The position numbers were made by a program, and so were the translations under genes. DNA of 64,000 bases. It comes from Antedon bifida. Lineage: Eukaryota; Echinodermata; Crinoidea; Comatulida; Antedonidae. Under the pieces are notes generated by a model, which saw only the letters and a list, made by a program, of their open reading frames with translations, was not told the DNA's origin and made no database searches. Location of the stretch: NCBI GenBank assembly GCA_963402885.1, contig OY727098.1:19020717-19084716 (forward strand). Direction: 5' to 3'. Shown here piece by piece: positions 2,786 through 44,629 of the stretch. How positions within the stretch are numbered: position 1 is the first letter of the stretch; every line of letters starts with the position of its first letter.

Positions 2786-3996
2786 TATATTAGAGAGCCT
2801 ACGTAATATATATCTAGAGCATTAGTTGAATTGACATGAAACATGTATTTTCTATGAGATCAAATCTACTTCACATCCGACGTTATGTGACGTTAAAATT
2901 AATTCAATCGATTTTACTGCAATGTTCATTTTGAGTCGTATCCTTATAGCATCAACAGGATAAATATACAAAGTATTATCAAAGTGTCGCCTAGAAAATC
3001 ATGTATGAAACACTCTATGTTACATGTTTGTGATCCTAAAAAATATACTAATATCAACAGCTGTACAAGGTGATGAAAATGAACCCTGTATAACGGAATG
3101 TCATACATTACTGAACAAATCACATAGGTGTGGACAACTTTGACTTGTATACATTTTTCTTGACGATAGACTTTTAAAATTAATTTATTAAAATTACATT
3201 AAATCGAAATTGTCAGCCTTCCTTGAAAATGTCAGGACTACTATTATCATTTTTCGTGATTGCATTTGTATCCCCAACTTTAAAACTCAAAAGAAGCTCA
3301 GATGAATTAGTCTATACAAAGATTACGTGGAACTAACTCCAGGGCATGAGTTTATAACAATGCTTTCTAAATGCTCTCTGGTATTCGTCCCTTGGGTGTC
3401 GATACCATTAAGTGATTCTAACAAATACGCCAAGTAAAAATATCTTTTATACTATATACTATGTTACATATCAAATATCACTCTAAATAAACTTGTGTAA
3501 AGTATTATTGCGCTAAAATTATAAAAGTTATTTTGCAAATATCAAATTACTACACAAAACAAACACCTAACTTACTAATAATTGTAAAAAGAACAGAAAC
3601 ACAAGGAGAAGAGTTAAGAATGCTGTTGAATAAAATATAATACGTGGAAATGTTATGTTTCGAGACCTTTTCTTATTTACTGCAAACATTAGAAATAACG
3701 TCCAAAGGTGAATGTACAGTTAATGGACATGAGTCGATAAATAGACGGAAGTTGTTCTATTGTTAGTTAGGCCTACTCACTAACTCCAAGTTGTTTTATA
3801 CTATAATGCATATGTGCATAGTTTTATAACAATTTTTTCTGTAAATAGCCAATTCTCTAGTTAAATAGCAAAACTTGTAGGACAACTAACATTTCTGCAT
3901 GCACCAGCATGTGCTTAGGATCCTTCAACTACTTATTAATTAACTACTGTACATTTAGATTTAACATCTAGATAGTTTACAAATCTAAATTGTAAA
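2784..3996. other. No gene recognised
   Basis: AT-rich sequence leading up to the first mobile-element boundary, with no recognisable exon or domain. It may belong to intron 1 of the vWA gene at 13620-13738 if that gene continues to the left. Confidence 0.5.
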
Positions 3997-5506
3997 CTAG
4001 AATTTAATTCGTCACTTTGACGAATTATAGGTGATCATTTTTATCATTTTACTGAAATTAATTTTTTTTAAACATGCACGTACGTTAACATACGATCGGA
4101 AAATGTTGATGTATGCCATCCTATTATATGCTTATAGTGCTCAGTTGTGCCTATATGCCATATACAATATGTACAGTATATACTGTATATCTATATACAG
4201 TGTAGCATAGGTGAAATTACGGGACACACATGTTCTAATTTTTTGGCATGATGACGTTATCAAACTAAACTTTAAGATGACAATTTCGAAAGATAATTAA
4301 TTGAGCAAAAAAATATAAGATTTGGAAAAAAATTTGGCACGTAGAAGCGCTGTGCGCGCTCTTTGAATTGTGTATAACTTTGACGAAAAATATGAAAAAA
4401 CTACTTTTTCACTTCAACTGGCCATATGTTAACGTCACAACATCCGATAGGCTTAATTTTTATATGAATTAATATCTACATTTCATCAGCTTTCATAATA
4501 AATTATAATCATCAAGGTAACCCTCAATTCTGAAGAGCTGTAAGATATTCAAATTTACTGCGAAGGTGAAATTACACGGCCTACGTTATTCAAGTTTTTA
4601 CGCGTGATGACGTCATTAAAATGAAGATAGTGTCAACTCATGATAAAGATAATTAATTAAGCAAGCACATACTGAAAGTTGTGCGAAATTCGAGCACACA
4701 TAACCAAGATGCGCTCTGTTGAATGTGATAATCTACACAAAAAGATAACAAATCCTAATTTTTAAATTCAAGTGGCCATTTGATGACGTCAAAACATTTT
4801 GTACGTAAAATGTGTACATGAATTCATATCTACAACTCAATGGCTTCCAGAATAAGTTAAAAAAATCGGGGGTCATCTTGCATTCTGAAGAATTATTTTC
4901 ATTTTAAAAAAGACCTGTTTTTCACCATTTTCAGAACTTTTGTAAAATTAATGTGCGCATTTTGTCATTTTTAACGTGCTCGTATAGCGTTATTTTAAGT
5001 CGGAACTGACTCAAATTTGGTGAATGTACTAAGGATGGTGAGTAGAATGAGATTTGTAAAAAAATTCATATTTTTTACGCTTTTTAAGTATCGCGCGCGC
5101 AAAAACGCATTTTTGCGCAGTAATTTTTTGAAACACGCAAATGCCCTAATTCATGCTCTAAATTGATCAAAACTTAATTTTGAGCGTTTTAAATTTTTAA
5201 CGCGCGATATCACGCGCATGAACCTACGTGCGCGTGCGTTTTTATTTGCTAATATTTTTACCCTTGATCTGAAGTTTACGTGTAGTGAATTTCATTAATA
5301 TGTGATAATGAATTATGGAGATATGATTGATAATGTGATTTCGCAAAATGGCGTATAAATGTCGTCGCGGATGAGTGATCACGCTGGAAAGCTTATTAGG
5401 ATTAAGTTATATTATTTGAAAGATATTCTGAAATTTTTGTAATCATTGACATTAAACTTTTTGAGATAATTGTTACACAAAATAGTGTACAGAAACAATA
5501 AAAAGA

Positions 5507-7062
5507 CTAGACATGTAACTCGTCACTTTGACGAGTTTGGTTTTCCGCCGCGCAAGTGGTGCAACATGAACGTGTAACGACGTACCTTACCGTACCGAAC
5601 ATTAAGGGGATAGGTTGAGGACAAAAGGAAGTGTCCACGTTGGCATTATGACCTGAACTGAAGAATATGATATGTTTTTATTGCTGAATTCTATTATTTT
5701 GATTCATATATAGTATACACAGTATAATCTGTATCTATATCACATACAGTGTAGAATAGGTGAAATTACGGGACCGGCTATTTATTGCAATTTTTAACAT
5801 GGCAACGGCATCAAAATGAAATACAAAGATAGCAATTTCGGAAGGATATTATCTCAGCAACAACATATTAACGTGCAAAAGAAATTTGAATACGTGAAAT
5901 ATTGATGCGCGCTCTTTTAAATGCAATGAATTATGACGCAAAAGATGAAAATACGACTTTTTTCATTTAACTGGCCATATGATGACGTCACAACATCCGA
6001 TTGGCAAAATTTTCACATAGTTTCGTATCTACAATCCAATAGCTTCCAGAAAACGTTGTAATCGTGATTATCAAATTTTATTCTTACGAGCTATAACAGA
6101 TTAAAATTTACTGTAAAGATGAAATTAATGCCACACGTAATTTAAATTTTTAGGAATGATGACGTCAAAAAAATTAAAATATTTATAATTCATGCGAAAG
6201 ACAGTTGATTGACCTAGACAATATCAAAATTTGGGTGAAAATGGAAAACGGATAAGTGGAGATGCGCTCTATTCAATGTGGTAAGCTATGACGAAAGATA
6301 CAAAAATCCTAAATTTTATATTAGCGTGGCCATACGATGACGTCACAATGTCCGGTTAGCCATATTAATACCTGATACGATATCTACAACTCATTAACTT
6401 CCAGAAAATGTCATCCACAAAAAGTTGACCGTCTAGTTTAGAAATTACGACTGTTTTAAAAAAGGCATATTTTAAACGAATTTTTTAACCTTTTCATAAA
6501 AAACGCGCGCAAATTGTCCAATTCGACGTGCTCGTATGACGTATCTTTAAGTCGAAATTGTTTAAAATTTGGTAAAATTACTAGAAAAGGCTGGAAAAAC
6601 ATAAATCACGCGAAAAAAATACGTTTTCAATGCTACGTGCGCACCGCACACGTAAAAATGTGCGCACGCGTGGGAATTTTTGACATGCTTAAAACGACAT
6701 GAAACGCGTAGAAAGTTGATTATAAATGAATTTTGCGCATTTTGAAATTTTAAATGCGCGTGCGCGCGTAACTTTGTGTAAAACACGCAATTTTTTTCCC
6801 ACAGAAATTTAGCGCATAATATAAATTAAACTTTTGCAAAGTTTCAAGTTGAAATGTTATTTGGTTGTCGAGCTATGTTAAATACGAGAAAATCGTTAAA
6901 TCGCGCGTACGTCACGTTGCGCAATTGTAAGCATCATGAAAAGCTTCGCTTGACGACGTTACATAAATGTCAAAATGTCAACATAGTTAAAAAAATGTTA
7001 TGTTTGCAAGTTTTAGAGAAAAGCGTTACACAAAAATCATACAGAAAGAAAGAAGATGAAAA
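5507..7062 (+). mobile_element. Tag-2 hairpin element body, closer missing
   Basis: Starts CTAGACATG, with the hairpin at 5517-5537 (arms AACTCGTCA/TGACGAGTT) and tag 2, GGTTTTCCGC (5539-5548). The element sits in the A-rich tail of the outer tag-1 element. Its own tail is interrupted at 7063 by another tag-1 element. No tag-2 closing hairpin follows it. The body is nearly identical to 10258-11812, so one of the two probably arose by duplication and the closer of this copy was lost. Confidence 0.75.
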
Positions 7063-8650
7063 CTAGAATTTAATTCGTCACTTTGACGAATTATAGGTGA
7101 TCATTTTTATCATTTTACTGAAATTAATTTTTTTTAAACATGCACGTACGTTAACATACGATCGGAAAATGTTGATGTATGCCATCCTATTATACGCTTA
7201 TAGTGCTGAGTTGTGCCTATATGCCATATACAATATGTACAGTATATACTGTATATCTATATACAGTGTAGCATAGGTGAAATTACTGGACACACATCAT
7301 GTTCTAATTTTTTCGAATGATGGCGTTATCAAACAAAACTTTAAGATGACAATTTCGAAAGATAATTAATTGAGCAAAAAAATATAAGATTTGGAAAAAA
7401 ATTTGGCACGTAGAAGCGCTGTGCGCGCTCTTTGAAATGTGTATTACTTTGACGAAAAATATGAAAAAACTACTTTTTCACATCAACTGGCCATATGTTA
7501 ACGTCACAACATCCGATAGGCTTGATTTTTATATGAATTCATATCTACATTTCATCAGCTTTCATAACAAATTATAATCATCAAGGTAACCTTCAATTCT
7601 GAAGAGCTGTAAGATATTCAAATTTACTGCGAAGGTGAAATTACACGGCCTACGTTATTCAAGTTTTTACGCATGATGACGTCATCAAAAAGAAAATAGT
7701 GTCAACTCATGATAAAGATAATTAATTAAGCAAGCACATACTGAAATTTGTGCAAAATTCGAGCACACATAAACAAGATGCGCTCTGTTGAATGTGATAT
7801 TCTACACAAAAAGATAAAAAATCCTAATTTTTAAATTCAAGTGGCCATTTGATGACGTCAAAACATTTTGTACGTAAAATGTGTACATGAATTCATATCT
7901 ACAACTTAATGGCTTCCAGAATAAGTTAAAAAAATTGGGGGTCATCTTGCATTCTAAAGAATTATTTTCATTTTAAAAATGCATTATTTTTCACCATTTT
8001 CAGCACTTTGATGCAATTAATTTGCGCATTTTGTCATTTTTATCCTGCTCGTATAGCGTTATTTTAAGTCGGAACTCACTCAAATTTGGTGAATGTACTA
8101 AGGATGGTGAGTAGAATGCGATTTGTAAAAAAAATTCGCATTTTTTACGCTTTTTAAGTATTGCACGCGCAAAATATTTTTTTTGCGCAGTAATTTTTTG
8201 AAACACGCAAATGGCCTGATTCATGCTCTAAATTAATCAAAACTTAATTTTGGGCTTTTTAAATTTTTAACGCGCGATTTCACGCGCATGGCCTTGAAAC
8301 GCGCAAGTTTTTATTTTCTAATATTTTTACCTTGACCTGAAGTTTACTTGTAGTGAATTTCATTAATAAGTGATAATGAATAGTAAAGATATGATTGATA
8401 TTGTGATTTCACAAAATGGCGTATAAATGACGTCACGGATGAGTGATCACGCTGAAAAGCTTATTATGTCTAAGTTAAAGTATTTGAAAGACATTGTGTA
8501 ATTTTTGTGATCATTGCCATTCAACTTTTTGAGATATTTGTTACACAAAAAGTGTACAGAAAGAATAAAAAAAAAAAAAATAAAAAAAAAAATAAATAAA
8601 GATTTCATACAATAACAATAGGTGATCATTTTATTCTAAATGATCACCTA
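7063..8650 (+). mobile_element. Complete tag-1 hairpin element
   Basis: Uninterrupted copy of about 1.6 kb. Opening hairpin 7072-7092, then tag TAGGTGATCATTT; closing hairpin 8619-8650 with a perfect 13-bp stem (tag, 6-nt loop, complement). Just before the close it has an A-rich tail (about 8565-8600) that matches the insertion point used in the outer tag-1 copy. The body contains several TGACGTCA octamers and CG-rich alternating purine/pyrimidine runs. No coding capacity seen. Confidence 0.8.
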
Positions 8651-8651
8651 A

Positions 8652-10249
8652 CTAGACATGAAACTCGTCACTTTGACGAGTTAGTTATCCGCACCACGAC
8701 AAACGCCACATGCACGTCATACATTGGAATATTGCACACAGATAAAGATTATGGCATTATGACAAGAACTGAAGAATATGATATGCTGTTAGTGCTGAAT
8801 TCTGTCAATTTTGTGTCATATAGTATATACATGCAAACAGTATAATCTGTATACATATTACATACAGTGTAGAATAGGTGAAATTACGGGACCCGCCATT
8901 TAGAGAAATTTTTAACATGGCGACGGTATCAAAATGAAAAACTTAGATAGCAATTTCAGAAGGAAATTATCTCAGGAACAACATATTAACGTGTAGAAGA
9001 AATTTGAATACGTAAAATATAGATGCGCACCCTTTTAAATGTGATGAACTATTACGCAAAATATGAAAATACGACTTTTTTTATTCAACTGGCCATATGA
9101 TGACGTCACAACATCCGATTGGCAAAATGTTTACATGAATTCGTATCTACAATCCAATAGCTTCCAGAAAACGTTTTAATCGTGATTATCACATTTTATT
9201 CTTACGAGCTATTACAGATTAAAATTTACTGTAAAGATGAAATTAATGACCCACGTAATTAAAATTTTTAGGCATGATGACGTCATAAAAATTAAAATAT
9301 TTTTAACTCATTCGAAAGATAGTTGATTGACCTAGATAATATAAAAATCGGGGTGAAAATGAAAAACGGGTAAGTGGAGATGCGCTCTATTAAATGTGAT
9401 GAGCTATGACGAAAGATACAAAAATCCTATATTTTATATTCGCGTGGCCATACGATGACGTCACAATGTCCGGTTAGCCATATTAATGCATGATCCGATA
9501 TTTACAACTCATCAACTTCCAGAATATGCAATAAAAAAAACTTTAACCGTTTAGTTTAGGAACTACGACTGTTTAAAAAAAGGCATAATTTTGACAAATT
9601 TTGACGATTTTTTGAACTTTTTCATCAAAAACACACGTAAATTATCCAATTCGACGTGCTCGTATGACTTTAATTTTAAGTCGAAATTGTTTAAAAGTTG
9701 GTAAAATTACTAGAAAAGGCTGGAAAAACATAAATCACACGAAAAAAATTGTTTTCAACGCTACGTGCGGACCGTGCGCGTAAAAATATGCGCGCGCGTG
9801 GGAATTTTTGACATGCTCAAAATGACATAAAACGCGTAGAAAGTTGATTAGAAATTGACTTTTCGCATTTTGAAATTTTAAACGCGCGTGCGCGCGTAAC
9901 TTCGTGTGAAACATGCCATTTTTTTTCCACAGTCAGTTAGCGCAAGATATAACTTAAACTTTTGTTAAGTTTCAAATTAAAATGTTATATGGTTTTCGAT
10001 TTATGTTAAATACGCGAAATTCATAAAAACGCGCGTAAGTCACGTTGCGCAACTCTGACGTCATTCACAATTGCGGGTGCACAACTTCACGTGAATGCCC
10101 ACATGTTGACAAAGTTATAAAATGTTATGTTTACACGTTTTTGAGTTACGCGTGACACAAAAATGACAGAAAGAAAGAAGAATACAGAAAAAAAAAAAGA
10201 TGATGAAACAGGACAGTTACAAGGAGTTATCCGCTGAATGCGGATAACT
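8652..10249 (+). mobile_element. Complete tag-3 hairpin element
   Basis: Starts CTAGACATGAAACTCGTCA; opening hairpin 8662-8682; tag AGTTATCCGC at 8683-8692; closing hairpin 10225-10249 (AGTTATCCGC, 5-nt loop, GCGGATAACT). It abuts the preceding tag-1 element with one base between. Internally it has two diverged half-repeats, each with a GGCCATA(T/C)GATGACGTCAC core followed by a CTTCCAGAA block. Non-coding. Confidence 0.8.
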
Positions 10250-10257
10250 AAAAAAGA

Positions 10258-13200
10258 CTAGACATGTAACTCGTCACTTTGACGAGTTTGGTTTTCCGCC
10301 GCGCAAGTGGTGCAACATGAACGTGTAACGACGTACCTTACCGTACCGAACATTAAGGGGATAGGTTGAGGACAAAAGGAAGTGTCCACGTTGGCATTAT
10401 GACCTGAACTGAAGAATATGATATGTTTTTATTGCTGAATTCTATTATTTTGATTCATATATAGTATACACAGTATAATCTGTATCTATATCACATACAG
10501 TGTAGAATAGGTGAAATTACGGGACCCGCTATTTATTGCAATTTTTAACATGGCGACGGCATCAAAATGAAATACAAAGATAGCAATTTCGGAAGGATAT
10601 TATCTCAGCAACAACATATTAACGTGCAAAAGAAATTTGAATACGTGAAATATTGATGCGCGCTCTTTTAAATGCAATGAATTATGACGCAAAAGATGAA
10701 AATACGACTTTTTTCATTTAACTGGCCATATGATGACGTCACAACATCCGATTGGCAAAATTTTCACATAGTTTCGTATCTACAATCCAATAGCTTCCAG
10801 AAAACGTTTTAATCGTGATTATCAAATTTTATTCTTACGAGCTATAACAGATTAAAATTTACTGTAAAGATGAAATTAATGCCACACGTAATTTAAATTT
10901 TTAGGAATGATGACGTCAAAAAAATTAAAATATTTATAATTCATGCGAAAGACAGTTGATTGACCTAGACAATATCAAAATTTGGGTGAAAATGGAAAAC
11001 GGATAAGTGGAGATGCGCTCTATTCAATGTGGTAAGCTATGACGAAAGATACAAAAATCCTAAATTTTATATTAGCGTGGCCATACGATGACGTCACAAT
11101 GTCCGGTTAGCCATATTAATACCTGATACGATATCTACAACTCATTAACTTCCAGAAAATGTCATCCACAAAAAGTTGACCGTCTAGTTTAGAAATTACG
11201 ACTGTTTAAAAAAAGGCATATTTTAAACGAATTTTTTAACCTTTTCATAAAAAACGCGCGCAAATTGTCCAATTCGACGTGCTCGTATGACGTATCTTTA
11301 AGTCGAAATTGTTTAAAATTTGGTAAAATTACTAGAAAAGGCTGGAAAAACATAAATCACGCGAAAAAAATACGTTTTCAATGCTACGTGCGCACCGCAC
11401 ACGTAAAAATGTGCGCACGCGTGGGAATTTTTGACATGCTTAAAACGACATGAAACGCGTAGAAAGTTGATTATAAATTAATTTTGCGCATTTTGAAATT
11501 TTAAATGCGCGTGCGCGCGTAACTTTGTGTGAAACACGCAATTTTTTTTCCACAGAAAGTTAGCGCATAATATAAATTAAACTTTTGCAAAGTTTCAAGT
11601 TGAAATGTTATTTGGTTGTCGAGTTATGTTAAATACGAGAAAATCGTTAAATCGCGCGTACGTCACGTTGCGCAATTGTAAGCATCATGAAAAGCTTCGC
11701 TTGACGACGTTACATAAATGTCAAAATGTCAATATAGTTAAAAAAATGTTATGTTTGCAAGTTTTAGAGAAAAGCGTTACACAAAAATCATACAGAAAGA
11801 AAGAAGATGAAACTAGACATGAAACTCGTCACTTTGACGAGTTAGTTATCCGCACGACAAACGCCACGTGCACGTCATACGTTAGAATTTTGCACCCAGA
11901 AAAAGATTATGGCATTATGACCTGATCTGAAGAATATGATATGTTGTTAGTGCTGAATTCTGTCAATTTTGTGTCATATAGTATTATACAGTATAAACAG
12001 TATAATCTGTATACATATTACATACAGTGTAGAATAGGTGAAATTACGGGACCCGCCATTTATTCCATTTTTTAACATGGCGACGGTATCAAAATGAAAC
12101 ACTAAAATACCAATTTCGGAAGGATATTATCTCAGCAACAACATATTAACATGTAGAAGAAATTTGAATACGTAAAATATAGATGCGCGCTCTTTTAAAT
12201 GTGATGAACTATGACGCAAAAGATGAAAATACAATTTTTTTTGTTCAACTGGCCATATGATGACGTCACAACGTCGGATTGGAAAAATTTTGATATGAAT
12301 TCGTATTTACAATACAATAGCTTCCAGAAAACGTTTTAATCATGATTACCGCTTTTTATTCTGACGAGCTATAACAGATTGAAAGTTACTGTAAAGATGA
12401 AAATAAGTGACCCACGTTATTTACATTTTTAGACATGATGACGTCAAAAAAATTAAAATATTTTTAACCCATGCGAAAGGTAGTTGATTGACCTAAAAAA
12501 TATCAAAATCTGGGTTAAAATGAAAAACGGATAAGCGAAGATGCGCTCTATTAAATGTGATGCTCTATGACAAAAGATACAAAAATCCTATATTTTATAT
12601 TCGCATGGCCATACGATGACGTCACAATGTCCTGTTAGCAATATTGATGCATGATACGATATCTACAACTCATCATCTTCCAGAATACGTAATAAAAATA
12701 ACTTTTACCGTTTAGTTTAGAAACTACGACTGTTTTAAAAAAGGTATAATTTTGACAAATTTTAAGGAATTTTTGAACTTTTTCATCAAAAACGTACGTA
12801 AATTATCCAATTCGACGTGCTGGTATGACGTTAATTTTAAGTCGAAATTGTTTAAAAGTTGGTAAAATTACTTGAAAAGGCTGGAAAAACATAAATCATG
12901 CGGAAAAAATTGTTTTTAACGCTACGTGCGCACAGCGCGCATAAAAATATGCGCGCGTGTGGGAATTTTTGACATGCTCAAAATGACATAAAACGCGTAG
13001 AAAGTTGATTAGAAATTGATTTTTCGCATTTTGAAATTTTAAACGCGCGTGCGCGCGTAACTTCGTGTAAAACATGCCATTTTTTCCTCACAGTCAGTTA
13101 GCGCAAGATATAACTTAAACTTTTTCTAAGTTTCAAATTAAAATGTTATATGGTTTTCGATCTATGTTAAATACGCGAAATTCATAAAAACGCGCGTAAG

Positions 13201-13484
13201 TCACGTTGCGCAACTCTGACGTCATTCACAATAGCGGGTGCACAACTTCACGTGAACGCCCACATGTTGACAAAGTTATAAAATGTTATGTTTACACGTT
13301 TTTGAGTTACGCGTGACACAAAAATGACAGAAAGAAAGAAGAATACAGAAAAAAAAAAAAAAAGATGATGAAACAGGACAGTTACAAGGAGTTATCCGCT
13401 ACTAAGCGGATAACTAAAAAAAGATGATGATGATGATTTCGTACAATCACAAGAGGTTTTCCTGCAACTTCGTTGCGGAAAACC
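10258..13484 (+). mobile_element. Tag-2 hairpin element interrupted by a tag-3 element
   Basis: Opening hairpin 10268-10288, tag GGTTTTCCGC; body to 11812 nearly identical to 5507-7062. Its tail, after GAAAGAAGATGA, is interrupted by the tag-3 element 11813-13415 and resumes as a GATGATGATG run, ending in the closing hairpin 13455-13484. That hairpin's distal arm GCGGAAAACC is the exact complement of the tag. Confidence 0.8.
11813..13415 (+). mobile_element. Complete tag-3 element nested in a tag-2 tail
   Basis: Opening hairpin 11823-11843 followed by AGTTATCCGC; closing hairpin 13390-13415 (11-bp stem, ACTA loop). Flanked on both sides by the tail of the tag-2 host element, and so the innermost and youngest layer of this stack. 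Confidence 0.8.
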
Positions 13485-13619
13485 AAAAAAAAAAAATAAA
13501 AAAAATAATAATAAAGATTTTATACAATAACAATAGGTGATCATTTTATTCTAAATGATCACCTAATTACTGATAACAAGTTTCCAAGTTCACAAGTTTA
13601 AAATTGATAATTAACTTAC

Positions 13620-13738
13620 TTGTCGAGAACAAAATAAAGATCAAAACCACCTTGGCATTTTGCTTTTTGACTTAGACATCCTGTAAATGTACTTATGACA
13701 ATACAAAACAATATTAGTATTCCTTTCCTGCAGTCCAT
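13620..13738 (-). CDS. First coding exon of an ANTXR-like vWA receptor
   Basis: Reading minus from ATG at 13738, 39 codons plus two bases end at a GTAAGT donor. The peptide starts MDCRKG, has a hydrophobic stretch (ILILFCIVISTFTGC) typical of a signal peptide, then CQGGFDLYFVLD followed by a split Lys codon. GFDLYF(V/I)LDK is the start of the vWA domain in anthrax toxin receptor family proteins (ANTXR1/2), where the DxSxS metal-binding motif follows directly. These are type I membrane proteins binding extracellular matrix. The exon carrying SGSV and the rest of the vWA domain was not found. It must lie at lower coordinates on minus or beyond the left edge. Intron 1 is packed with the 3997-13565 mobile array. 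Paralogue identity is not resolved. Confidence 0.68.
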
Positions 13739-14334
13739 ATTTGCAACAGAGTGTGGATATCCGTTAGTTTCGTCTGGGATAATACCCACTGCAACTTAAC
13801 TTGTCGTTGTTTTGTGCGATGTGATGGGAATTAAAGCGATTCTCAACAGTGCCTCTTTACACTTCACACATGCGCATTTATACCGTTTGATTCCTCACGT
13901 AGAAAAATGATAGGTGACATCTATGTTTGATTGGAGATAAGATGACGGGAAGTGTCATCATGTTGAACTTTGAACCTCAAAAGATTCACAAGTACAGTAC
14001 ACCGGAGTCCGGTTGTTAGTAATCGAACAGCAAGGTCGGAAGTTGAAGAAACCCTGGGATCCATAGGTATTTGTTAAGATCCCCTGAAAAGCTAAGAAAT
14101 ATTATTATGATTTCATCATGTTCTAAATATAGAAATACCAATCATCAAATGACGGTATAGGCTATCATGTATGAATAGATATGTATTGTTCACAATAATA
14201 GGAAATGATTTTCATTTCAGTTCAAGGTTATTATAATAACATGGTAATCTTGATCTTGTATACATTGCTATAGGCCTATCGACATTAAATACTCGGAAAC
14301 AAATGTACGGTAATACGATTATTAAATAATGCAT
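13739..14334 (-). promoter_or_regulatory. Upstream region of the ANTXR-like exon
   Basis: Immediately 5' of the vWA-gene start codon. It contains CACATGCGCA at about 13868, an NRF1-like half-palindrome. No TATA box is placed with confidence, and no other gene is seen. Confidence 0.3.
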
Positions 14335-14640
14335 TTCACTCTCTTTGAGCAACGTTTCACTCTCTACCAACGATGCACTCTCTTTGAGCAATGATGCTTT
14401 TCAGTCTCTTTTAGAAATGAATCTCTTCACTCTCTCTTTTAACTCTTTCAGCAATTATTTTAACTCTCTTTCAGCAATACTTTTAACTCTCTTTCAGCAA
14501 TTATTTTCACTCTCTTTCAGCAATTCTTTTCACTCTCTGAGCAATTATGCGTTGCACTCTCTTTGAGCAATGACGCTCTCCACTCTCTTTTGAGTGATGA
14601 TGCTCTGCACTTTCTTTCAGAAATGATGCTTTTCAATTCA
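14335..14640. repeat. Minisatellite, about 20-25-bp units
   Basis: Degenerate tandem units of the form CACTCTCTTT(C/G)AGCAAT with GATG or TATT spacers, roughly a dozen copies. The 73-codon plus-strand open frame here, rich in Ser/Leu/Phe, is a by-product of the repeat. Confidence 0.85.
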
Positions 14641-16788
14641 TTTTCTCTTCACTCCTTTTGTGAAATGATCTTTGAAATGATCACTCGCATGAAGTATGAT
14701 CCAGTCATTCTCTTTAAATGATGATGCGTTTGTGTCCTTGAGAAATCAAGGCAACATTCGAATTTCAGAGTTGCTATGTCACTTCTATGTTGGTTTGTCT
14801 AGGCCAACGATGAGTCTAAGAAAACATTGTTTATGTTTAATCAAAGTCCGGAAATGAAAGATGTTAGGACCGGTAGGGCCTATACCATCATCGGGACCAT
14901 CATGTTTTAAAAGAAAATTAACCACAACCATCGGATCAATGTGCATTTTGATTACATCGTTCCGTTCTACTTACCATAGTAAAACCATATATAGGCATAA
15001 ATAAACCAAATTACCCTTTGTCATAACCAAGTCATATGAAATTTTTAAAAAGAGCTTATGTGGTCCCTTTTTCTGTCCCACTTTTAAAAATAGAATTCCG
15101 TCTTTGTTTTTCGTTTTTGTTAAGGCTTAGAGAGCCTACGCGGGAAAGTCGCCACTAAGGTATCTAACAATAAAAACCAAATTAAAAGGAAGAGTTGTTA
15201 ATTGGCGTATTAGGCATTATAGAAATTGTTTTCTTTTCGAGAAAATAACAATTAGAAAACGTTTTTCTTTTTGACATTGAATTACTGTTGCATAAGCTTT
15301 ATTAATTGATACGGGTTCCAATTAATACAAGGCTAAAGTTAAAAATAAAATCATGGAAATATTGTTTATGATTACGTGAGACGTGATTAGAATGATAATA
15401 ATTTGTTTTCAAGGTATCATCAATCATAATGTTAAAAAATATGTGTAGTATATAGGTAAATCATACTATTTATTTCCTTATTAGTGTTTCGATTAATGAC
15501 TCATGACTTTCATTATTAGGTGGGAGGTTTAAACATTGAAACAAATAATACCTTACTTGGTCTTCTCATAATGTGTTTTTTTGTTATATCATTCTACCGT
15601 GATTCTACGCTCTGTGATCATTTCCTTGTGAAAAGCAAATGCAGTATCAAGCAGCGTATAATAATAGCGTGGGATTCTACCAGGTATTATTCAGGTGATG
15701 ATAATAACAAATAAGAAGTGTATGGAAATTGATGCTTGTAAGAACCTGAGCAGTTATTTTGTTCGTTTCGTTATTGTGATGTACATATGAAAATGAAATA
15801 AAAAAATACAACAACGTACTAAATAAAGTATCTTTCCCTTAAACTAATCCCCCATTTTGTTATAGTATAGCCAATCTGTACTAATAATTAGATATTTAAG
15901 TATTAGCCTTATCCACTAATATTATAGTTTATATCATGTTTTATAACAATTGAGTCGGCAGTTGACAAATAAAATGCTCTCTGTGAAAAAAAACCAGAAT
16001 CTGACATAAAATAACTCAGATGGCCCCATTAAAACGTCTCCCTATTCTAATGTTCATTATGTATGTTTTACAAATATTGTTATATTTCACCTACATACTT
16101 TCAACGAATTGCTCATGAACTAAGTTCATAATTCTTAATCACGATGACTTGCTAGGCCTGGCCATGGACAATAATTCGTGTATCTATGGTCTGTCAACTT
16201 TCGAAAGTGAGCATGCATTTGTAACTCTGATCATGATATAAATAAAACAGAATCATCTATAAGTGAATTGAAAATATAATTTAGTTTGAATTCAGAAAAA
16301 ATCTTACTCATGGGATGTTTAAATAAAAAGATTAGTTTATCACGTGTAAAGAGGAAAGAAAATAATTCTGGATTTAGTCAAGATTTTCTGTTGCCATTAA
16401 ATTAAATCTAGTCTAGTCTAGTTTATGTTTATCTTATGCATTCTTCTTCATCTGGAATAACTGTCTGAAGACATTCGGAAATTGACTGTTGAAAATAAAA
16501 ATGATAGGCCTACTGCTTTTTATTTACCACTGTATAGATGTTTATAATATTAACGATATACATAACTGTATGATAGCCGGATCAAATATAAACAGTACTA
16601 AAACAAAGTACAACTCATCAATGTATTGTATTACTCTTTCTCTGGAAAACGTGTATGAAAACTGAAGTGTTAAACTACAGTGAATATCTAATTCTAGTTC
16701 AACACGTTTCCTATACAGTTTGCTGAAAGAAACGGCATTGATCGGATGGGCTACTTAAAAACAAAAAGTTGAAAATCAACCAAATTAA
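14641..16788. other. No gene recognised
   Basis: AT-rich unique-looking sequence between the minisatellite and the second element array. A short plus-strand open frame (15520-15714) has no recognisable domain. Confidence 0.5.
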
Positions 16789-18312
16789 CTAGACATGAAA
16801 CTCGTCACTTTGACGAGTTAGTTATCCGCACCACGACAAACGCCACGTTCACATCATACGTTGGAATATTGCACACAGATAAAGATTATGGCATTATGAC
16901 AAGAACTGAAGAATATGATATGCTGTTAGTGCTGAATTCTGTCAATTTTGTGTCATATAGCATATACATGCAAACAGTATAATCTGTATACATATTACAT
17001 ACAGTGTAGAATAGGTGAAATTACGGGACCCGCCATTTATTCCAATTTTTAACATGGCGACGGTATCAAAATGAAACACTTGGATAGCAATTTCAGAAGG
17101 AAATTATCTCAGGAACAACATATTAACGTGTAGAAGAAATTTGAATACATAAAATATAGATGCGCACCCTTTTAAATGTGATGAACTATTACGCAAAATA
17201 TGAAAATTTGACCTTTTTAATTAAACTTGTCATATGATGACGTCACAACATCTGATTGACAAAATGTTCACATGAATTCGTATCTGCAATCCAATAGCTT
17301 CCAGAAAACGTTTTAATCGTGATTATCACATTTTATTCTTACGAGCTATAACAGATTAAAATTTACTGTAAAGATAAAATTAATGACCCACGTAATTTAA
17401 ATTTTTAGGCATGATGACGTTATAAAAATTAAAATATTTTTAACTCATGCGAAAGAAAATTGATTGACCTAGATAATATTAAAATCTCGGAGAAAATGGA
17501 AGACGGATAAGCGTGATGCGCTCCATTGAATGTGATGAGCAATAACGAAAGAGACAAAAATCCTATTTTTTACATTTGTGTGGCCATACGATGACGTCAC
17601 AACATCCGTAAGGAAAAAATTCTGCATGAATTCATATCTACAACATATCTGCTTACATATTAAGTTAAAAAACTTGGGGGTAACGGTTGATCCTGAGGAG
17701 CTATAATAGATTCAAAATAGGCATAATTTTGACAATATTTTGTAACTTTTGCAACTAAAACGCATGCAAATGGTCTAAATCAACGTGTACGTATGACGTC
17801 ATTTTAATTTGAAATGATGTCAATCTTTTTAAAAATGACTAGGAAAGGCTGGAAAATCACAATTTAATAGAAAAAAACATGATTTTCATGCTGCGTGCGC
17901 ACTGCACGCGTAAAATTGTTCGTGCGCGGGGGAAATTTTGACATGCGCAAAATGTCATGAATGGCGTAAAAAGTTGATTAGAAATTAATTTTGCGCATTT
18001 TAAAATTTTAAATGCGCGTGCGCGCGTAACTTCTTGTAAAACACGCCATTTTTAGTTAACTAAAAGTTTGCCCTTGATATGACTTAAATTTTCATAAAGG
18101 GTAAAAAAAAAATTACGCTTGGTTTTTAAGCTATAATCAATCATAAAAAATCATAAAATCGCGCGTAAGTCACGTTGCGCAACTCTGACGTCATTCAAAA
18201 TAGGAGGTGCACAACTTCACGTAAATGCCCATGTGTTGACAAAGTTATGAAATGTTATGTTTACCCATTTTAGAGAAACGCTCCTCACAAAAAGGAAGGA
18301 AAGAAAGAAGAA

Positions 18313-21300
18313 CTAGACATGAAACTCGTCACTTTGACGAGTTAGTTATCCGCACAACGACAAACGCCACGTGCACGTCATACGTTGGAATATTGCACAC
18401 AGATAAAGATTATGGCATTATGACAAGAACTGAAGAATATGATATGCTGTTAGTGCTGAATTCTGTCAATTTGTGTCATATAGTATATACATGCAAAGAG
18501 TATAATCTGTATACATATTACATACAGTGTAGAATAGGTGAAATTACGGGGCCCGCCATTTATTCCAATTTTTAACATGGCGACGGTATCAAAATGAAAC
18601 ACTTAAATAGCAATTTCTGGAGAAAATTATCTCAGGAACAACATATTAACGTGTAGAAGAAATTTGAATACGTAAAATATAGATGCGCACCCTTTTAAAT
18701 GTGATGAACTATTACGCAAAATATGAAAATACGACTTTTTTTATTCAACTGGCCATATGATGACGTCACAACATCCGATTGGCAAAATGTTTACATGAAT
18801 TCGTATCTACAATCCAATAGCTTCCAGAAAACGTTTTAATCGTGATTATCACATTTTATTCTTACGAGCTATTACAGATTAAAATTTACTGTAAAGATGA
18901 AATTAATGACCCACGTAATTAAAATTTTTAGGCATGATGACGTCATAAAAATTAAAATATTTTTATCTCATGCTAAAGAAAGTTGATTGACCTACACAAT
19001 ATATAAATGTAGGAGAAAAAGGAATACAGATAAGCGCGATGCGCTCCATTGAATGTGATGAGCAATAACGAAAGATACAAAAATCCTATATTTTACATTC
19101 GTGTGGCCATACGATGACGTCACAATGTTTTTTTAGCCTTATTGATGCATGATCCGATATCTACAACTCATCAACTTCTAGATTTTGTAATAAAAATAAA
19201 CGGTTAACGGTTTACTTTAGAAACTATGACTGTTTAAAAAAAGACATAATTTTGACGATTTTTTAAGCTTTTTCATAAAAAACGCGCACGAATTGTCTAA
19301 TTCAACGTGTTCGTATGGCGTTATTTAAACTGGAAAAGGTCTAAATTGTTTTCAAAATCACTGGGAAAGGCTTGAAAAATATAATTCAAGAGAAAAAAAT
19401 ATGTTTTTAACGCTATGTGCGCACCGCGCGCATAAAAAATTGCGCGCCCGTGGGAATTTTTGACATGCTCAAAATGACAAGAAACGCGTAAAAAGTTGAT
19501 TAGAAATTAATTTTGCGCATTTTGAAATTTTAAATGCGCGTGCGCGCGTAACTTCTTGTCAAACATGCAATTTTTAATCCGTAGAAAGTTTGCCCCTGAT
19601 ATGACTTAAATTTTGTCAAAGTGTCAATACTAAATGACTTTTGGTTTTTAATCTATGATCAATCATTGAAATTCATAAAATTGCGCATAAGTCACGTTGC
19701 GCAACTATGACGTCATTCAAAAATAGGAGGTGCACAACTTCACGTAAATGCCCATATGTTGTCAAAGTTATGAAATGTTATGTTTACACATTTTAGAGGA
19801 ACACGACTCACAAAAAGGAAGGAAGGAAAGAAGAATAATACAGAAAAACTAGATTTGAACTCGTCACTTTAACGAGTTCGGGTTATCCGCGCAAACGCAA
19901 CATGCACATACTTATAACTATATGAACCTCAAAAATTATTATGCCATCCTATGACATGAATTAAGAATGTTTACAGTGCTGAATTGTACCTATTATGTAG
20001 CATACACCATATTACAGTATTTTACAGAATAAACTGTATATGTTATATACAGTGATCATAGACAAAATTACGAGACCCATCTTTTAAATCCAATTATTAA
20101 CACGATGAAATCATCAAATTGACATATAAAGATAACAATTTTAGAAGATAATTATCGAAATAATTACATTAAAACAAATTTGAAGAATTTTGGGTACGTA
20201 AAAGTGAGATGCGCTCTTGTTTAAACGCAATGAACTTTTACGCAAGAGATGAAAATATGACTTTTTGAATTCAACTGGCCATATGATGACGTCACAACAT
20301 CTGATTGGTAAAATATTCACATCAATTCGTATCTACAATCCAATAGCTTCCAGAAAACGTTTTAATCATGATTATCACTTTTTAATCTGACGAGCTATAA
20401 CAGATTGAAATTTACTGTAAAGATGAAAACAAGTAACCCAAGTTATTTACGTTTTTAGACATGATGACGTCATAAAAATTAAAATTGTTTAATTCATGCT
20501 AAAGATAGTTGATTGACGTTGACAATATTATAATTTCGGGGGAAATGGAATATGTATAAGCGAGATGCGCTTTGTTGAATGTGATAAGCAATAATGAAAG
20601 AGTAAAAAATCCTATATTTTACATTCGTGTGGCCATACGATGACGTCATAACATCCGAGTGGTAAAGATTCTGCATGAATTCATATCTACAACATATCTG
20701 CTTACATATTAAAATTAAAAAATTGGGGGTCGTGGATGATCCTGAGGAGCTATAATAGATTAAAAATAGGCATAATTTTGACAATATGTTGTAACTTTCG
20801 CATCTAAAACGCGCGCAAATGGTCTAAATCAACGTGTTCGTATGACGTTATTTTAATTTGAAATGATTTTAATCTTTTTAAAAATGACTAGGAAAGGCTA
20901 GAAAATCACAATTCAAGAGAAAAAAACATGATTTTCGTACTCCGTGCTCACCTTACGCGTATTTTTTTTCGCGCGCGCGGGAATTTTTGACATGCTTAAA
21001 ATGTTATGATCAGCGTAGAAAGTTGATTAGAAATTAATTTTGCGCATTTTAAAACTTTAAATGCGCGTGCGCGCGTAACTTCTTGTAAAACATGCCATTT
21101 TTAATCCATAGAAAGTTGACCCATGATATGAATTATAATTTTATTAAGTTTCATGAAACAATATTTGTTGGTTCTAAAGTTATGATCAGTTATAGAATTT
21201 CATAAAATCGCGCGCAACTTACACAACGCGGATCTGACATCGTCCAAAAGCTTGGCTGCACATCTACACTTCAATGTCAATCTTTTTACCAAGTTATACA

Positions 21301-21489
21301 AAGTTATGTTCACAAGCAATAGAGATATGCTGGTCACAAAAATCCGGGAAAGAAAGAAGAATAACAAAGAAGATGAAAAAGATATTTACAATCACATGGG
21401 TTATCCTGCAACTAAGTTGCGGATAACCAAAAATATTGATCTCATACAATTACAAGGAGTTATCCGCTTGGTATACCAAGCGGATAACT
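18313..21489 (+). mobile_element. Middle tag-3 element interrupted by a tag-4 element
   Basis: Opening hairpin 18323-18343, tag AGTTATCCGC. The body ends in GAATAATACAGAAAAA (to 19848), where the tag-4 element is inserted. Host tail resumes with ATATTGATCTC after 21428 and closes with a perfect 32-bp palindrome at 21458-21489. From about 18590 to 19860 the sequence is nearly identical to 21690-22970 and to the inverted copy at 48325-49911. Confidence 0.75.
19849..21428 (+). mobile_element. Tag-4 hairpin element, innermost layer
   Basis: Starts CTAGATTTG; opening hairpin 19858-19878 carries one mismatch (CTTTAACGAG); tag GGTTATCCGC at 19881-19890; closing hairpin 21399-21428 with distal arm GCGGATAACC. 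About 1.58 kb, flanked by A runs derived from the tail of the tag-3 host. Confidence 0.78.
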
Positions 21490-21581
21490 AATAATACAGA
21501 AAAATATTGATCCAATACAATCACAAGGAGTTATCCGCTACTAAGCGGATAACTAAATATTGATCCCATACAATAACAAGG

Positions 21582-21609
21582 AGTTATCCGCTCTACCAAG
21601 CGGATAACT
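21582..21609. repeat. Orphan tag-3 closing hairpin
   Basis: AGTTATCCGCT, 5-6 nt loop, AGCGGATAACT, preceded by a copy of the element tail (TTGATCCCATACAATAACAAGG). Inside-out pairing leaves no opener for it. It directly abuts the 5'-truncated element starting near 21612, suggesting unequal recombination between copies. Confidence 0.7.
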
Positions 21610-21611
21610 AA

Positions 21612-24606
21612 TAAGCTGTATACATATTACATACAGTGTAGAATAGGTGAAATTACGGGACCCGCCATTTATTCCAATTTTTAACATGGCGACGGTATCA
21701 AAATGAAACACTTAGATAGCAATTTCAGAAGGAAATTATCTCAGGAACAACATATTAACGTGTAGAAGAAATTTGAATACGTAAAATATAGATGCGCACC
21801 CTTTTAAATGTGATGAACTATTACGCAAAATATGAAAATACGACTTTTTTTATTCAACTGGCCATATGATGACGTCACAACATCCGATTGGCAAAATGTT
21901 TACATGAATTCGTATCTACAATCCAATAGCTTCCAGAAAACGTTTTAATCGTGATTATCACATTTTATTCTTACGAGCTATTGCAGATTAAAATTTACTG
22001 TAAAGATGAAATTAATGACCCACGTAATTAAAATTTTTAGGCATGATGACGTCATAAAAATTAAAATATTTTTATCTCATGCTAAAGAAAGTTGATTGAC
22101 CTACACAATATATAAATGTAGGAGAAAAAGGAATACAGATAAGCGCGATGCGCTCCATTGAATGTGATGAGCAATAACGAAAGAGACAAAAATCCTATAT
22201 TTTACATTCGTGTGGCCATACGATGACGTCACAATGTTTTTTTAGCCTTATTGATGCATGATCCGATATCTACAACTCATCAACTTCTAGATTTTGTAAT
22301 AAAAATAAACGGTTAACGGTTTACTTTAGAAACTATGACTGTTTAAAAAAAGACATAATTTTGACGATTTTTTAAGCTTTTTCATAAAAAACGCGCACGA
22401 ATTGTCTAATTCAACGTGTTCGTATGGCGTTATTTAAACTGGAAAAGGTCTAAATTGTTTTCAAAATCACTGGGAAAGGCTTGAAAAATATAATTCAAGA
22501 GAAAAAAATATGTTTTTAACGCTATGTGCGCACCGCGCGCATAAAAAATTGCGCGCCCGTGGGAATTTTTGACATGCTCAAAATGACAAGAAACGCGTAA
22601 AAAGTTGATTAGAAATTAATTTTGCGCATTTTGAAATTTTAAATGCGCGTGCGCGCGTAACTTCTTGTCAAACATGCCATTTTTAATCCGTAGAAAGTTT
22701 GCCCCTGATATGACTTAAATTTTGTCAAAGTGTCAATACTAAATGACTTTTGGTTTTTAATCTATGATCAATCATTGAAATTCATAAAATTGCGCATAAG
22801 TCACGTTGCGCAACTATGACGTCATTCAAAAATAGGAGGTGCACAACTTCACGTAAATGCCCATATGTTGTCAAAGTTATGAAATGTTATGTTTACACAT
22901 TTTAGAGGAACACGACTCACAAAAAGGAAGGAAGGAAAGAAGAATAATACAGAAAAACTAGATTTGAACTCGTCACTTTGACGAGTTCGGGTTATCCGCG
23001 CAAACGCAACATGCACATACGTTTAAAATATATGAACGCCAACAATTATTATGCCATCCTATGACATGAATTAAATATGTTTACAGTGCTGAATTGTACC
23101 TATTTTGTAGCATACAGCATATTACAGTATTTACAGAATACATTGTATGTTATATACAGTGCAGCATAGACGAAATTACGAGACCCATCTTTTAAATCCA
23201 ATTATTAACAAGATGACGTCATCAAATTGACATATAAAGATAACAATTTTTGAAGATAATTATCTAAATAATTACATTAATACAAATTTGAAGAATTTTG
23301 AGCACGTAAAAGTGAGATGCGCTCTCGTTTAAATGCAATGAACTTTTACGCAAGAGATGAAAATATGACTTTTTGAATTCAACTGGCCATATGATGACGT
23401 CACAACATCTGATTGGCAAAATATTCACATGAATTTGTATCTACAATCCAATAGCTTCCAGAAAACGTTCTAATCATGATTATCACTTTTTATTCTGACG
23501 AGTTATAACAGATTGAAATTTACTGTAAAGATGAAAATAGTTGACCCACGTTATTTACATTTTTAGACATGATGACGTAATAAAAATTAAAATATTTTTA
23601 ACTCATGCGAAAGATAGTTGATTGACCTAGAGAGTATTAAAATATATGAGGAAATGGAATACGTATAAGCGAGATGCGCTCTATTTAATGTAATGAGCAA
23701 TAACGAAACAGTCAAAAATCCAAAATTTTACATTCGTTTGGCCATACGATGACGTCATAACATCCGAGGGGTAAAGATTCTGCATGAATTCATATCTACA
23801 ACATATCTGCTTCTATATTAAATTAAAAAAATTGGGGGTAACGGTTGATCCTGAGGAGCTATAATAGATTCAAAATAGGCATAATTTTGACAAAATTTTG
23901 TCACTTTTGCAACTAAAACGCGCGCAAATGGTCTAAATCAACGTGTTCGTATGACGTCATTTTAATTTGAAATGATGTAAATCTTTTTTAAAATGACTAA
24001 GAAAGGCTGTAAAATCATAATTCAAGAAAAAAACACATGATTTTCATGCTCCGTGCGCACCTTACGCGTAAATTTTTTCGCGCGCGTGGGAATTTTTTAC
24101 ATGCTCAAAATGTCATGATCAGCGTAGAAAGTTGATTAGAAATTAATTTTGCGCATTTTTAAATTTTAAATGCGCGTGCGCGCGTAACTTCTTGTGAAAC
24201 ATGTCATTTTTAATCCATAGAAAGTTTGCCCTTGATATGACTTAAATTTTTACCAAGTGTCAATACAAAATGACTTTTGGTTTATAATCTATGACCAATC
24301 ATTGAAATTCATAAAATTGCGCGTAACTTACGCTGCGCGACTCTAACGTCATTAAAAATATGGAGGTGCACAACTTCAGGTAAATGTCCATATAATGACA
24401 AAGTTATACAAAAGATATATTCACAAGCAATAGGGGATATGCGACGCACAAAAATCCGGGAAAGAAAGAAGAATAACAAAGAAGAAGATGAAAAAAAAGA
24501 TATTTACAATCACATGGGTTATCCGCAACTAAGTTGCGGATAACCAAAAATATTGATCTCATACAATTACAAGGAGTTATCCGCTTGGTATACCAAGCGG
24601 ATAACT
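21612..24606 (+). mobile_element. 5'-truncated tag-3 element interrupted by a tag-4 element
   Basis: Lacks the opening hairpin and tag and begins at the internal CTGTATACATATTAC block. The body to 22957 closely matches 18500-19848. After the nested tag-4 element, its tail closes with the perfect 32-bp palindrome at 24575-24606. Confidence 0.75.
22958..24545 (+). mobile_element. Complete tag-4 hairpin element
   Basis: Opening hairpin 22967-22987, tag GGTTATCCGC; closing hairpin 24517-24545 with a 14-bp stem ending GCGGATAACC. Inserted at the same AATACAGAAAAA tail position as the tag-4 element at 19849, probably because the pair was copied together. Confidence 0.78.
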
Positions 24607-42090: not shown

Positions 42091-42404
42091 TCTGTAAAGT
42101 AGAAGTAAAATGGTTAAAGCCAGTGTCACGCAAAATTAGGTTCTATTGTAAAATTAAGTTCCCAACTTAATTTTCCATCCAAGGCGCTAAATTAGAAAAC
42201 TACACGTAAGTTCAGTGTTACATCATATTCAAAATATTATTAGACAGAAAAACTAGTTTATTTTACAAAAATTCAATCTCGTTACAACGAGACACACTTA
42301 TATGTTGATTATTATCTTTATTTTGGGGGGTTTTCAAAATAGAGAAAGTGTGTCAAAAACATTGTGACCAAATTACATCATGTGACCATTGTTTCGATAC
42401 TTCA

Positions 42405-44554: not shown

Positions 44555-44629
44555 AGCTTAAGAGATTTGATTTTCAACTATTTGGTATGGTATGTAGACT
44601 CAGCTTTAAATCCGAAACATTCGTATTCG

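Follow-up and report, generated by a model that had tools for sequence, protein, structure and literature searches.

The hairpin-bounded repeats of the window (the whole 64-kb stretch of Antedon bifida DNA that was analysed) are very probably HINEs, the non-autonomous Helentrons of the DINE-1 type, which build nests by repeated insertion into oligo-T. This class is already known, and its members are abundant in this one genome; the last-in-first-out stacking of the elements and the Helentron reading frames of the same genome go beyond the first-pass annotation, which had named Helentron-type Helitrons with subterminal inverted repeats as the nearest known design. The class stands, and the anatomy now argues for membership of it. 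The direction given to the elements was reversed: what had been called the 'opening' hairpin corresponds to the 3′ palindrome of a HINE, and its 'closing' counterpart comprises the 5′ subTIR together with the inverted repeat beside it. Opener and closer are kept here as names for the two hairpins, and the − strand given for the arrays below is the canonical 5′ to 3′ direction of the HINE.

Anatomy and classification

Read in the earlier direction, 11 openers are present in the window, 10 on the + strand and one on the − strand at 49901–49881. Ten are perfect hairpins and the opener at 19858 has a single mismatch; shuffled sequences gave an expectation of 0.01 against 21 matches listed, which count most hairpins twice (both strands). 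The tag lies 0–2 nt from the hairpin, within the 0–3 nt first reported. There are 12 closers: family A at 8620 and 13535; family B at 13455; family C at 10225, 13390, 21458, 21529, 21582, 24575 and 48356–48325 (−), and family D at 21399 and 24517.

In the canonical direction, an element starts with 5′-TT, the subTIR, a loop and the inverted repeat, followed by an oligo-T tract. The remainder consists of a non-coding body of approximately 1.5 kb, the 3′ subTIR, the 3′ palindrome AAYTCGTCAAAGTGACGARTT and the end CTAGT(T) within 12 nt; in both B copies the 3′ end reads CTAGTC. The hairpins had been taken as the element ends, but beyond the opener come 12 conserved nucleotides that include ACTAGA (GACTAGA in B), and the end is 12 nt past the hairpin. 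In all 11 cases, one of them with the mismatch, some 12 nt separate the 21-nt palindrome from the end.

Several traits of HINEs recur in these elements. The subTIRs, about 11–15 bp long in HINEs, are identical within the element in nine of nine array pairs and in the solo element, over 10 nt in C and D. TT directly precedes the 5′ subTIR and its adjoining inverted repeat, 1–4 nt from the end, in all 12 closers, and a stem-loop stands between the 3′ subTIR and the 3′ end (11 of 11). Insertion at TT without target duplication is seen at internal (nested) empty sites. The elements lack coding capacity: none of the nine frames of at least 120 codons in the window falls inside them. As for central repeats or microsatellites, the oligo-T tract is present, and the body holds two diverged units of about 355 bp, a weak repeat at about 69–75% identity. 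HINE families are defined by their subTIRs, with an 11-bp rule, in the relevant parts of the published descriptions (PMC4067079; PMC2374699); family B, with 11 nt, just reaches this length, and C and D, with 10 nt, fall one short of it. The 3′ end CTAG is equally like canonical Helitrons (CTRR) and Helentrons. A canonical Helitron (5′ TC, 3′ CTRR, A–T insertion) was rejected, since the elements have 5′ TT and insert within A/T runs, and CTAG alone fits.

Matched subTIRs

The first-pass annotation had every element carry matching tags at its two ends. The match is real: a tag and its complement stand at opposite ends in all 10 complete elements of the window, exactly over 10–13 nt (nine array pairs from the tag–closer matrix and the solo element from its own listing). 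The exceptions to pairing are incomplete copies, namely the B element at 5517 without its own closer, the closer at 21582 without an opener, and a C body at 21610 that has lost its opener. The distal arm of the closer is the complement of the tag, as described. The inner arm uses the tag as well, and at 13455 and 21399 it contains a bulge of one base. Four tag families had been proposed. In the matrix A and B are clearly apart, whereas C openers and D closers have a 10-nt run in common; a single base distinguishes the C tag from the D tag, and only one or two bases separate any two of B, C and D.

The exact opener hairpin occurs in 4176 copies in the same genome against none for a reversed-pattern control, and a search of viral contigs gave no matches. 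One host gene tail, compared with the protein collection, had no match at E ≤ 0.01. The first 20 openers on contig C1 outside the window, each read with 9.4 kb of flank, were examined for copies whose tag and closer disagree: none was mismatched, 16 complete copies had a matching closer (16 of 16) and four were truncated without a closer. C pairing outside the window is likewise based on these 20 loci. A further degenerate opener outside these 20, at locus L045, has no closer in the sequence examined. In a fifth subfamily, 32 of 49 openers have their closer, correctly placed and on the expected strand, no more than 10 kb away, and 17 have none in that distance; the wrong-way controls gave 3, 3 and 2 of 49, and a lineage sharing the tag but with another closer gave 1 of 30. 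These 79 openers (49 + 30) are among 100 listed of 542 places, 21 rows with other spellings having been dropped.

Family-specific matched subTIRs are already published, so no new code is needed, and a new end-code unrelated to Helentrons was rejected. Three co-resident DINE-1 types, each with matched subTIRs, are described for D. willistoni in the passages concerned (PMC4067079; PMC2374699).

It is doubtful, on balance, that the tag is a pairing address, such that one enzyme reads the palindrome common to the families while base pairing between the tags at the 5′ and 3′ ends selects the partner ends and so would keep co-resident families and nested copies distinct. The palindrome is indeed common while the tags vary, and some tags have changed in concert. 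At locus L050, where the body is 92.9% like B over 1346 nt, an identical T-to-A change is present at both ends and three tag copies are altered together. The C element at 16799 is a mosaic: its middle is D-like (the AU test rejects C) and its opener side is C (AU 0.0005 rejects D), yet C tags are kept at both ends and the type has been amplified (L040, 95% identical). On its closer side, over 180 columns, the AU test favours D (0.945) over a single C group (0.055), whereas FastTree groups it with the C element at 18323 (support 0.76), so this crossover is not firmly placed; the AU tests used 5000 replicates, below the program's advice, and 11–12 sequences. This counts against an address, and so does common descent, from which matched ends follow without a pairing step; tags that differ by one base (C and D) or by one or two (B) would be a weak address; and a Calliphora element without a 3′ subTIR is present in 40 copies according to the cited paper. 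Copies of the same family are not independent of one another as evidence; what counts independently is a small number of concerted tag changes and the single mosaic lineage, which kept matched tags.

Nested arrays and empty sites

The region 3997–24606, first treated as one stretch, comprises two nested arrays, at about 3995–13566 and 16787–24608 (both −), with 3.2 kb of other DNA between them. With openers in capitals and closers in lower case, array 1 reads A B A a C c B C c b a, in which an outer HINE of family A encloses B, A, C, B and C elements. Array 2 reads C C D d c c c, then a truncated C body, then D d c. A solo C element lies apart at 48323–49913 (+), with its canonical 5′ end at 48323, its closer at 48325–48356 and its 3′ palindrome at 49881–49901 (+).

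In array 1 (all features −), the 3′ palindrome of the outer A element is at 4006–4026 (arms AATTCGTCA, the opening hairpin of the first-pass annotation) and its 5′ subTIR hairpin at 13535–13564. The closer-less B element has its palindrome at 5517–5537. The other pairs, palindrome first, are A7072 (7072–7092 with subTIR and inverted repeat at 8620–8649), C8662 (8662–8682 with 10225–10249), B10268 (10268–10288 with 13455–13484, bulged) and C11823 (11823–11843 with 13390–13415). In array 2 (also −), the mosaic C16799 (16799–16819) pairs with 21529–21554, C18323 (18323–18343) with 21458–21489, D19858 (19858–19878, with the mismatch) with the bulged hairpin at 21399–21428, and D22967 (22967–22987) with 24517–24545. 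The stack of three C hairpins beginning at 21458, 21529 and 21582 spans 21458–21609, its last member being the one without an opener; next to it lies the C body without a 3′ end (21610–22953). The 5′ hairpins of D22967 and of this body (24575–24606) occupy 24517–24606. Six of the 10 complete elements are uninterrupted: A7072, C8662, C11823, the two D elements and the solo C.

Nested copies share one orientation. They follow a last-in-first-out order because new copies enter older ones in the oligo-T tract, or next to it, some tens of nucleotides inside the 5′ end. The solo C serves as the empty-site reference for nested C copies: C18323 without D19858 reads as this uninterrupted element does, with 8 A against 4 + 5 A at the site. 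The outer A element without its inserts resembles A7072. Insertion is within A/T runs and target duplication is absent, as judged at nested empty sites only, the number of T at the ends being ambiguous. The solo C is 99.1% identical to C18323 and 99.8% to the truncated C body; copy identity of up to 99.8% suggests recent activity only.

Same-strand neighbours at 1.4–1.9 kb were found for 39 of 100 listed openers and opposite-strand neighbours for none, against a random mean of 0.4 and maximum of 5. On 14 Mb of C1, with 42 A openers and 39 A closers, last-in-first-out pairing produced 35 pairs and left seven openers and four closers over. Twenty-seven pairs span 1513–1570 bp, two about 1 kb and six 3.1–19.1 kb, and all six long pairs enclose other openers or closers. 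An A closer follows, at 1.4–1.8 kb, on 27 of 42 A-arm openers as against 3 of 58 others. In the pairing count family identity was itself used for pairing, with a 25-kb limit, on 100 listed of the 4176 openers. A second closer in L040 was rejected as an anomaly, since by coordinates it fits an outer element opening at C1:2445309.

Regular 1.5-kb spacing and common orientation would also be expected if the arrays were head-to-tail products of terminator read-through or unequal crossing-over, and parts of the published accounts describe tandem Helitrons formed by terminator bypass (PMC4067079; PMC2374699). The elements B5517 and B10268, 99.4% identical, with an identical left junction and one closer between them, are what such a process would leave, and at least one duplication or exchange was probably involved in array 1. 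As an account of the arrays as a whole, however, this origin is unlikely. Adjoining elements alternate between families that are only about 60–85% identical, the closers are stacked on one side in the reverse of opener order, and removal of an inner element makes the outer tail intact again. The two D copies, 89.6% identical, also entered two C copies (99.3% identical) at one and the same position. Pure tandem amplification was rejected on the family alternation, the reversed closer order and the empty sites. A cut-and-paste origin, as MITEs or a similar family with inverted repeats, is extremely improbable: the elements recall such families in being short, non-coding and numerous and in having an inverted repeat at either end, but the repeats are subterminal and asymmetric, nested empty sites lack a target duplication, and the 3′ palindrome, the CTAG end and the Helentron proteins in the genome speak against them.

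Helentron reading frames in the same genome

A search for an autonomous relative, as had been proposed, yielded Helentron reading frames. Of 39 Rep-domain matches in the genome, 20 are in frames of more than 2200 codons, stop-free in the match, and 11 in frames of more than 3000. By domain matches the C8 frame has a Helitron-type Rep domain, a Pif1-like helicase end and an AP endonuclease. Piecewise it matches Helentrons with a tegument-like protease, sometimes OTU, helicase/Rep and a C-terminal AP endonuclease, as the relevant sections on VTD/OTU-carrying Helentrons describe them (PMC9741609), a likeness drawn from sequence matches.

The C8 frame runs into a HINE-like flank, and related flanks are present on C11 and C14, in the same direction only. 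One of the subTIR tags described here closes the C14 flank copy, which is without a Rep match; the reading of this flank leaves a 249-bp gap between L055 and L058. For the intact C10 frame, we infer the corresponding flank from coordinates alone. The 1 kb that precedes the C8 frame contains no opener, and the stretch examined for closers of the C8 Helentron is another D-like body. The C8 frame is read away from the palindrome end and towards the subTIR end. Most Helentrons have the opposite direction, with precedents for this one in parts of the published descriptions (PMC4067079; PMC2374699; PMC5148889). The degenerate opener hairpin at 1348 of L051 was rejected as the autonomous end, since the element that it opens is HINE-like and has the same direction. 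L043, considered as an autonomous relative, has no frame longer than 106 codons in 9.9 kb.

Transposition and related systems

From the Helitron and Helentron literature, a Helentron Rep/helicase would nick at the 5′ subTIR hairpin and peel off one strand, stopping at the 3′ palindrome; a circle would form and be inserted at TT. Matched subTIRs may identify the displaced 3′ end as belonging to the 5′ end, through strand pairing or the same bound protein. That subTIR pairing in the displaced strand decides which palindrome stops the process, one transposase serving several co-resident families, is a tentative proposal that we consider improbable. Each element would carry a preferred oligo-T target some tens of nucleotides inside its 5′ end, so that repeated landing there gives last-in-first-out arrays resembling paired brackets.

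The passages on HINE/DINE-1-like elements (Thomas 2014, PMC4067079; Yang & Barbash 2008, PMC2374699) agree in family-specific subTIRs matched within the element, a 5′ inverted repeat, a 3′ stem-loop, TT insertion into a T-rich target, the lack of coding capacity and, with only weak repeats here, central repeats. Compared with them, the present elements combine several subTIR families with nearly one 3′ palindrome, have a full 5′ hairpin and nest regularly in their own oligo-T tract. The oyster Cg_HINE, as far as described in the relevant sections of PMC7492417, has an 11–12-bp subTIR with a 7–12-bp complementary repeat 1–12 bp away, a 3′ palindrome, oligo-T insertion and modular interiors, all as here; its central arrays are satellite-like, in contrast to our two diverged repeats. 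FoHeli/Helitron2 of Fusarium (parts of PMC5148889) is alike in hairpins at both ends (two subgroups), a hairpin-forming inverted repeat, self-insertion and multiple 5′ termini; it differs in being fungal, in its target site and in the single nested example reported.

These results assign very regular repeats of this animal genome to a known superfamily, point to a candidate enzyme, and correct the orientation and ends of the repeats. If the tag were an address, an outer element could bypass inner palindromes and move as a composite, which would amount to a physical bracket-matching rule in the genome. The passages on subTIRs in published accounts of Helentrons describe their presence without a tested function; related elements with varied matched subTIRs, mosaics and deep nests provide material on the role of subTIRs in Helentron transposition.

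Matched ends of the elements

The window has 11 copies of the 21-nt hairpin AAYTCGTCACTTTGACGARTT, 10 of them perfect, against a mean of 0.01 matches in shuffled sequence. Together with a tag, one of four (families A to D), that starts 0–2 nt behind it, the hairpin forms the opener of an element. The distal arm of the closing hairpin is, as the first-pass annotation had it, the exact complement of the element's own tag in 10 of 10 complete pairs in the window. These pairs (family with opener position/closer position) are A4006/13535 and A7072/8620; B10268/13455; C8662/10225, C11823/13390, C16799/21529, C18323/21458 and a solo C at 49901/48356; and D19858/21399 and D22967/24517. Random dealing of the closers (2 A, 1 B, 5 C, 2 D) matches all ten pairs 1 time in 7,560, a figure that treats family copies as independent, which they are not, and C and D tags differ by one base. 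The claim that every element opens and closes in this way holds for the ten pairs but fails for opener B5517, which has no closer, and for closer c21582 and a C body (21610–22953, its closer kept at 24575), which have no opener. The arms of the hairpin co-vary too, reading AATTCGTCA/TGACGAATT in family A and AACTCGTCA/TGACGAGTT in the remaining families.

The assembly containing the window (315.6 Mb) carries 4,176 exact copies of the hairpin. Among the first 100 listed, 39 openers have a same-strand neighbour at 1.4–1.9 kb and none an opposite-strand one, versus 0.4 on average and at most 5 under random placement; the longest array among the openers listed contains 12. Copies whose tag and closing arm disagree were looked for beyond the window by reading 9.9 kb at each of the first 20 openers: all 16 complete elements match, none is mismatched, and four openers without any closer belong to truncated elements, similar to those of the window over 61 to about 1,137 nt.

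Two larger tests are based on coordinates alone. Paired last-in-first-out, 35 of 42 family A openers (among the 100 listed of 4,176) find a partner among 39 closers, with 27 of the 35 pairs spaced at 1,513–1,570 bp and seven openers and four closers left single. For a fifth subfamily (tag GGTTATCCGC, closer GGTTATCCGCCAAGTGCGGATAACC), 32 of 49 openers among the matches listed are followed by the closer on their own strand, at most 10 kb downstream; wrong-way controls give 3, 3 and 2 of 49, and a lineage with the GGTTATCCGC tag but a different closer has the fifth-subfamily closer in 1 of 30 (again among the matches listed). By their coordinates, two fifth-subfamily elements surround an element whose palindrome arms are of the C type; what looks like a double closer at one locus (L040) is therefore correct nesting again.

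Orientation and anatomy

Read on the reverse strand, the elements consist of TT, the tag as a subterminal inverted repeat (subTIR), a short loop, an inverted repeat, a conserved TGTNAYTGT, oligo-T, the body, a second subTIR, a palindrome and 12 terminal nt closing with CTAGT(T), or CTAGTC in both B copies. The same order of parts is described for non-autonomous Helentrons (HINEs) and DINE-1, which have a 5' subTIR at or 1–4 nt from the terminus with a complementary repeat adjoining, a 3' subTIR and palindrome, and a T-rich TT target without duplication (accessible parts of PMC4067079, PMC2374699 and PMC7492417). The hairpin that had been taken for the element start thus turns out to be the 3' palindrome, with 12 nt between it and the end of the element.

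Nested insertions

The order of ends (capitals, openers; lower case, closers) is A B A a C c B C c b a in array 1 (about 3995–13566) and C C D d c c c, the C body, then D d c in array 2 (about 16787–24608). On the plus strand, each element that was entered has an oligo-A tract ahead of its closing hairpin, and the inserts lie at that tract or immediately in front of it. C18323 without D19858 has the tail of the uninterrupted solo C (9 versus 8 A), and A4006 without everything between has that of A7072. Identity among C18323, the C that lacks its opener and the solo C is 99.1–99.8%. Two of these C copies carry D copies at the same site, the latter only 89.6% identical: D entered one hotspot twice, unless the C copies were homogenised later. 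Array 1 was probably also shaped by exchange or duplication inside the nest, because B5517 and B10268 (5504–7060 and 10255–11812) are 99.4% identical, with the same left junction and a single, shared B closer between them.

On contig C1 of the same genome (G000), six successive family A closers spaced by about 55–75 bp (19291233–19291571) represent either a six-deep nest or one element with multiple 5' ends. The accessible parts of PMC4067079, PMC2374699, PMC7492417 and PMC5148889 already describe subTIRs that match within an element and differ by family, a stem-loop at the 3' end, oligo-T targeting, and self-insertion together with multiple 5' ends. A literature search covering mostly titles and the beginnings of abstracts, with few subscription journals, yielded no description of elements that nest regularly, last in, first out, in their own oligo-T tract.

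Tag co-variation and descent

Few independent events of tag co-variation are visible. Family A differs from all others throughout. The body at locus L050 is 92.9% like B over 1,346 nt, and all three of its tag copies (the two ends and the inner arm) read GGTTATCCGC in place of B's GGTTTTCCGC; at each of these places, the C and D tags differ in their first base. The mosaic element C16799 has C tags at both ends. By AU test, D is rejected for its 360 opener-side columns (0.0005), which group with C, and C for its middle 460 (about 0), which group with D. The closer-side 180 columns give mixed results: AU values are 0.945 for grouping with D versus 0.055 for a single C group, and FastTree puts them beside C18323 with a support of 0.76. 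Over the final 150-column window, similarity is 93% to C18323 and 76% to D22967. A 95% relative, L040, shows that the mosaic type has spread. A mosaic with matched C tags agrees with a need for matched ends, short of proving pairing.

A Helentron enzyme and its flank

The domain PF14214 (Helitron_like_N) has 39 matches in this genome and none in 14 control genomes; 20 lie, uninterrupted by stops, in frames of more than 2,200 codons, and 11 in frames of more than 3,000. A frame of 3,152 codons on contig C8, matched in pieces, contains a tegument-like protease match, a weak OTU match, a Rep domain, a Pif1-like helicase end and an AP-type endonuclease, which is a Helentron hallmark. The herpesvirus-tegument-like protease and weak OTU matches lie at C8:19812400–19814400 (L052); the frame, known here from sequence matches, resembles the VTD/OTU Helentrons in the accessible part of PMC9741609. 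Rep domains spaced by about 33–37 kb on one strand (C10:7512334, 7545862 and 7583191; C11:11231037 and 11264147) are possibly a tandem array of large Helentrons or a segmental duplication.

The stop of the C8 frame is followed by non-coding repeats and then by HINE-like sequence in the opener-to-closer direction, from about position 734 of locus L051 (64–71% identity in pieces). In the C11 copy, HINE-like sequence follows the same junction, most clearly from L054rc:370 onwards and at up to 88%; in the C14 copy it starts close by, with 81.5% over 599 nt. These three flanks gave no HINE match in the opposite direction. A DNA search located related flanks at further Helentron frames. Past an interval of 249 bases between the stretches read, the C14 flank continues with a HINE-like tail, oligo-A, a fifth-subfamily closer, a D closer and a D opener, from which we infer that this copy sits in the tail of a D element, at the same hotspot. 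Within the 1 kb preceding the C8 frame, no opener end was seen. A partnership of these frames with the HINEs is likely, short of proof; if true, the frame runs against the polarity of the ends, an arrangement reported for some Helentrons (accessible parts of PMC4067079 and PMC5148889).

This genome holds both the enzyme and the elements, with their structure, paired ends and nesting. The HINEs would be moved through rolling-circle transposition by the Helentron Rep/helicase, and the palindrome may act as a stop signal by analogy with Helraiser, for which the accessible part of the report describes more non-canonical events after hairpin deletion and about 90% of activity retained after a stem swap. 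Pairing of the subTIRs might, at a guess, serve end recognition; that it provides a specific address is doubtful.

Other features of the window

Host-gene-like exons with EGF-like modules, a membrane span and repeated DDEYEDIS-type tail motifs occupy the minus strand at about 35700–51000 and at 62337–62702, the solo HINE lying between such exons; a search for relatives of one of these tails found none. A reverse transcriptase fragment, slightly below the Pfam cut-off, is found on the plus strand at 59208–59687.

The 19.0 kb of HINE sequence (3992–13566, 16785–24607 and 48324–49914) contains 42 perfect sites of TGACGTCA, the cAMP-response element; elsewhere the window has 3, and letter shuffles give 0.1. 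When the bodies are aligned, one site keeps its column in all 12 and another does so in 10 of the 12, although identity between A and C is 62%. Thousands of HINE copies would spread such sites genome-wide.
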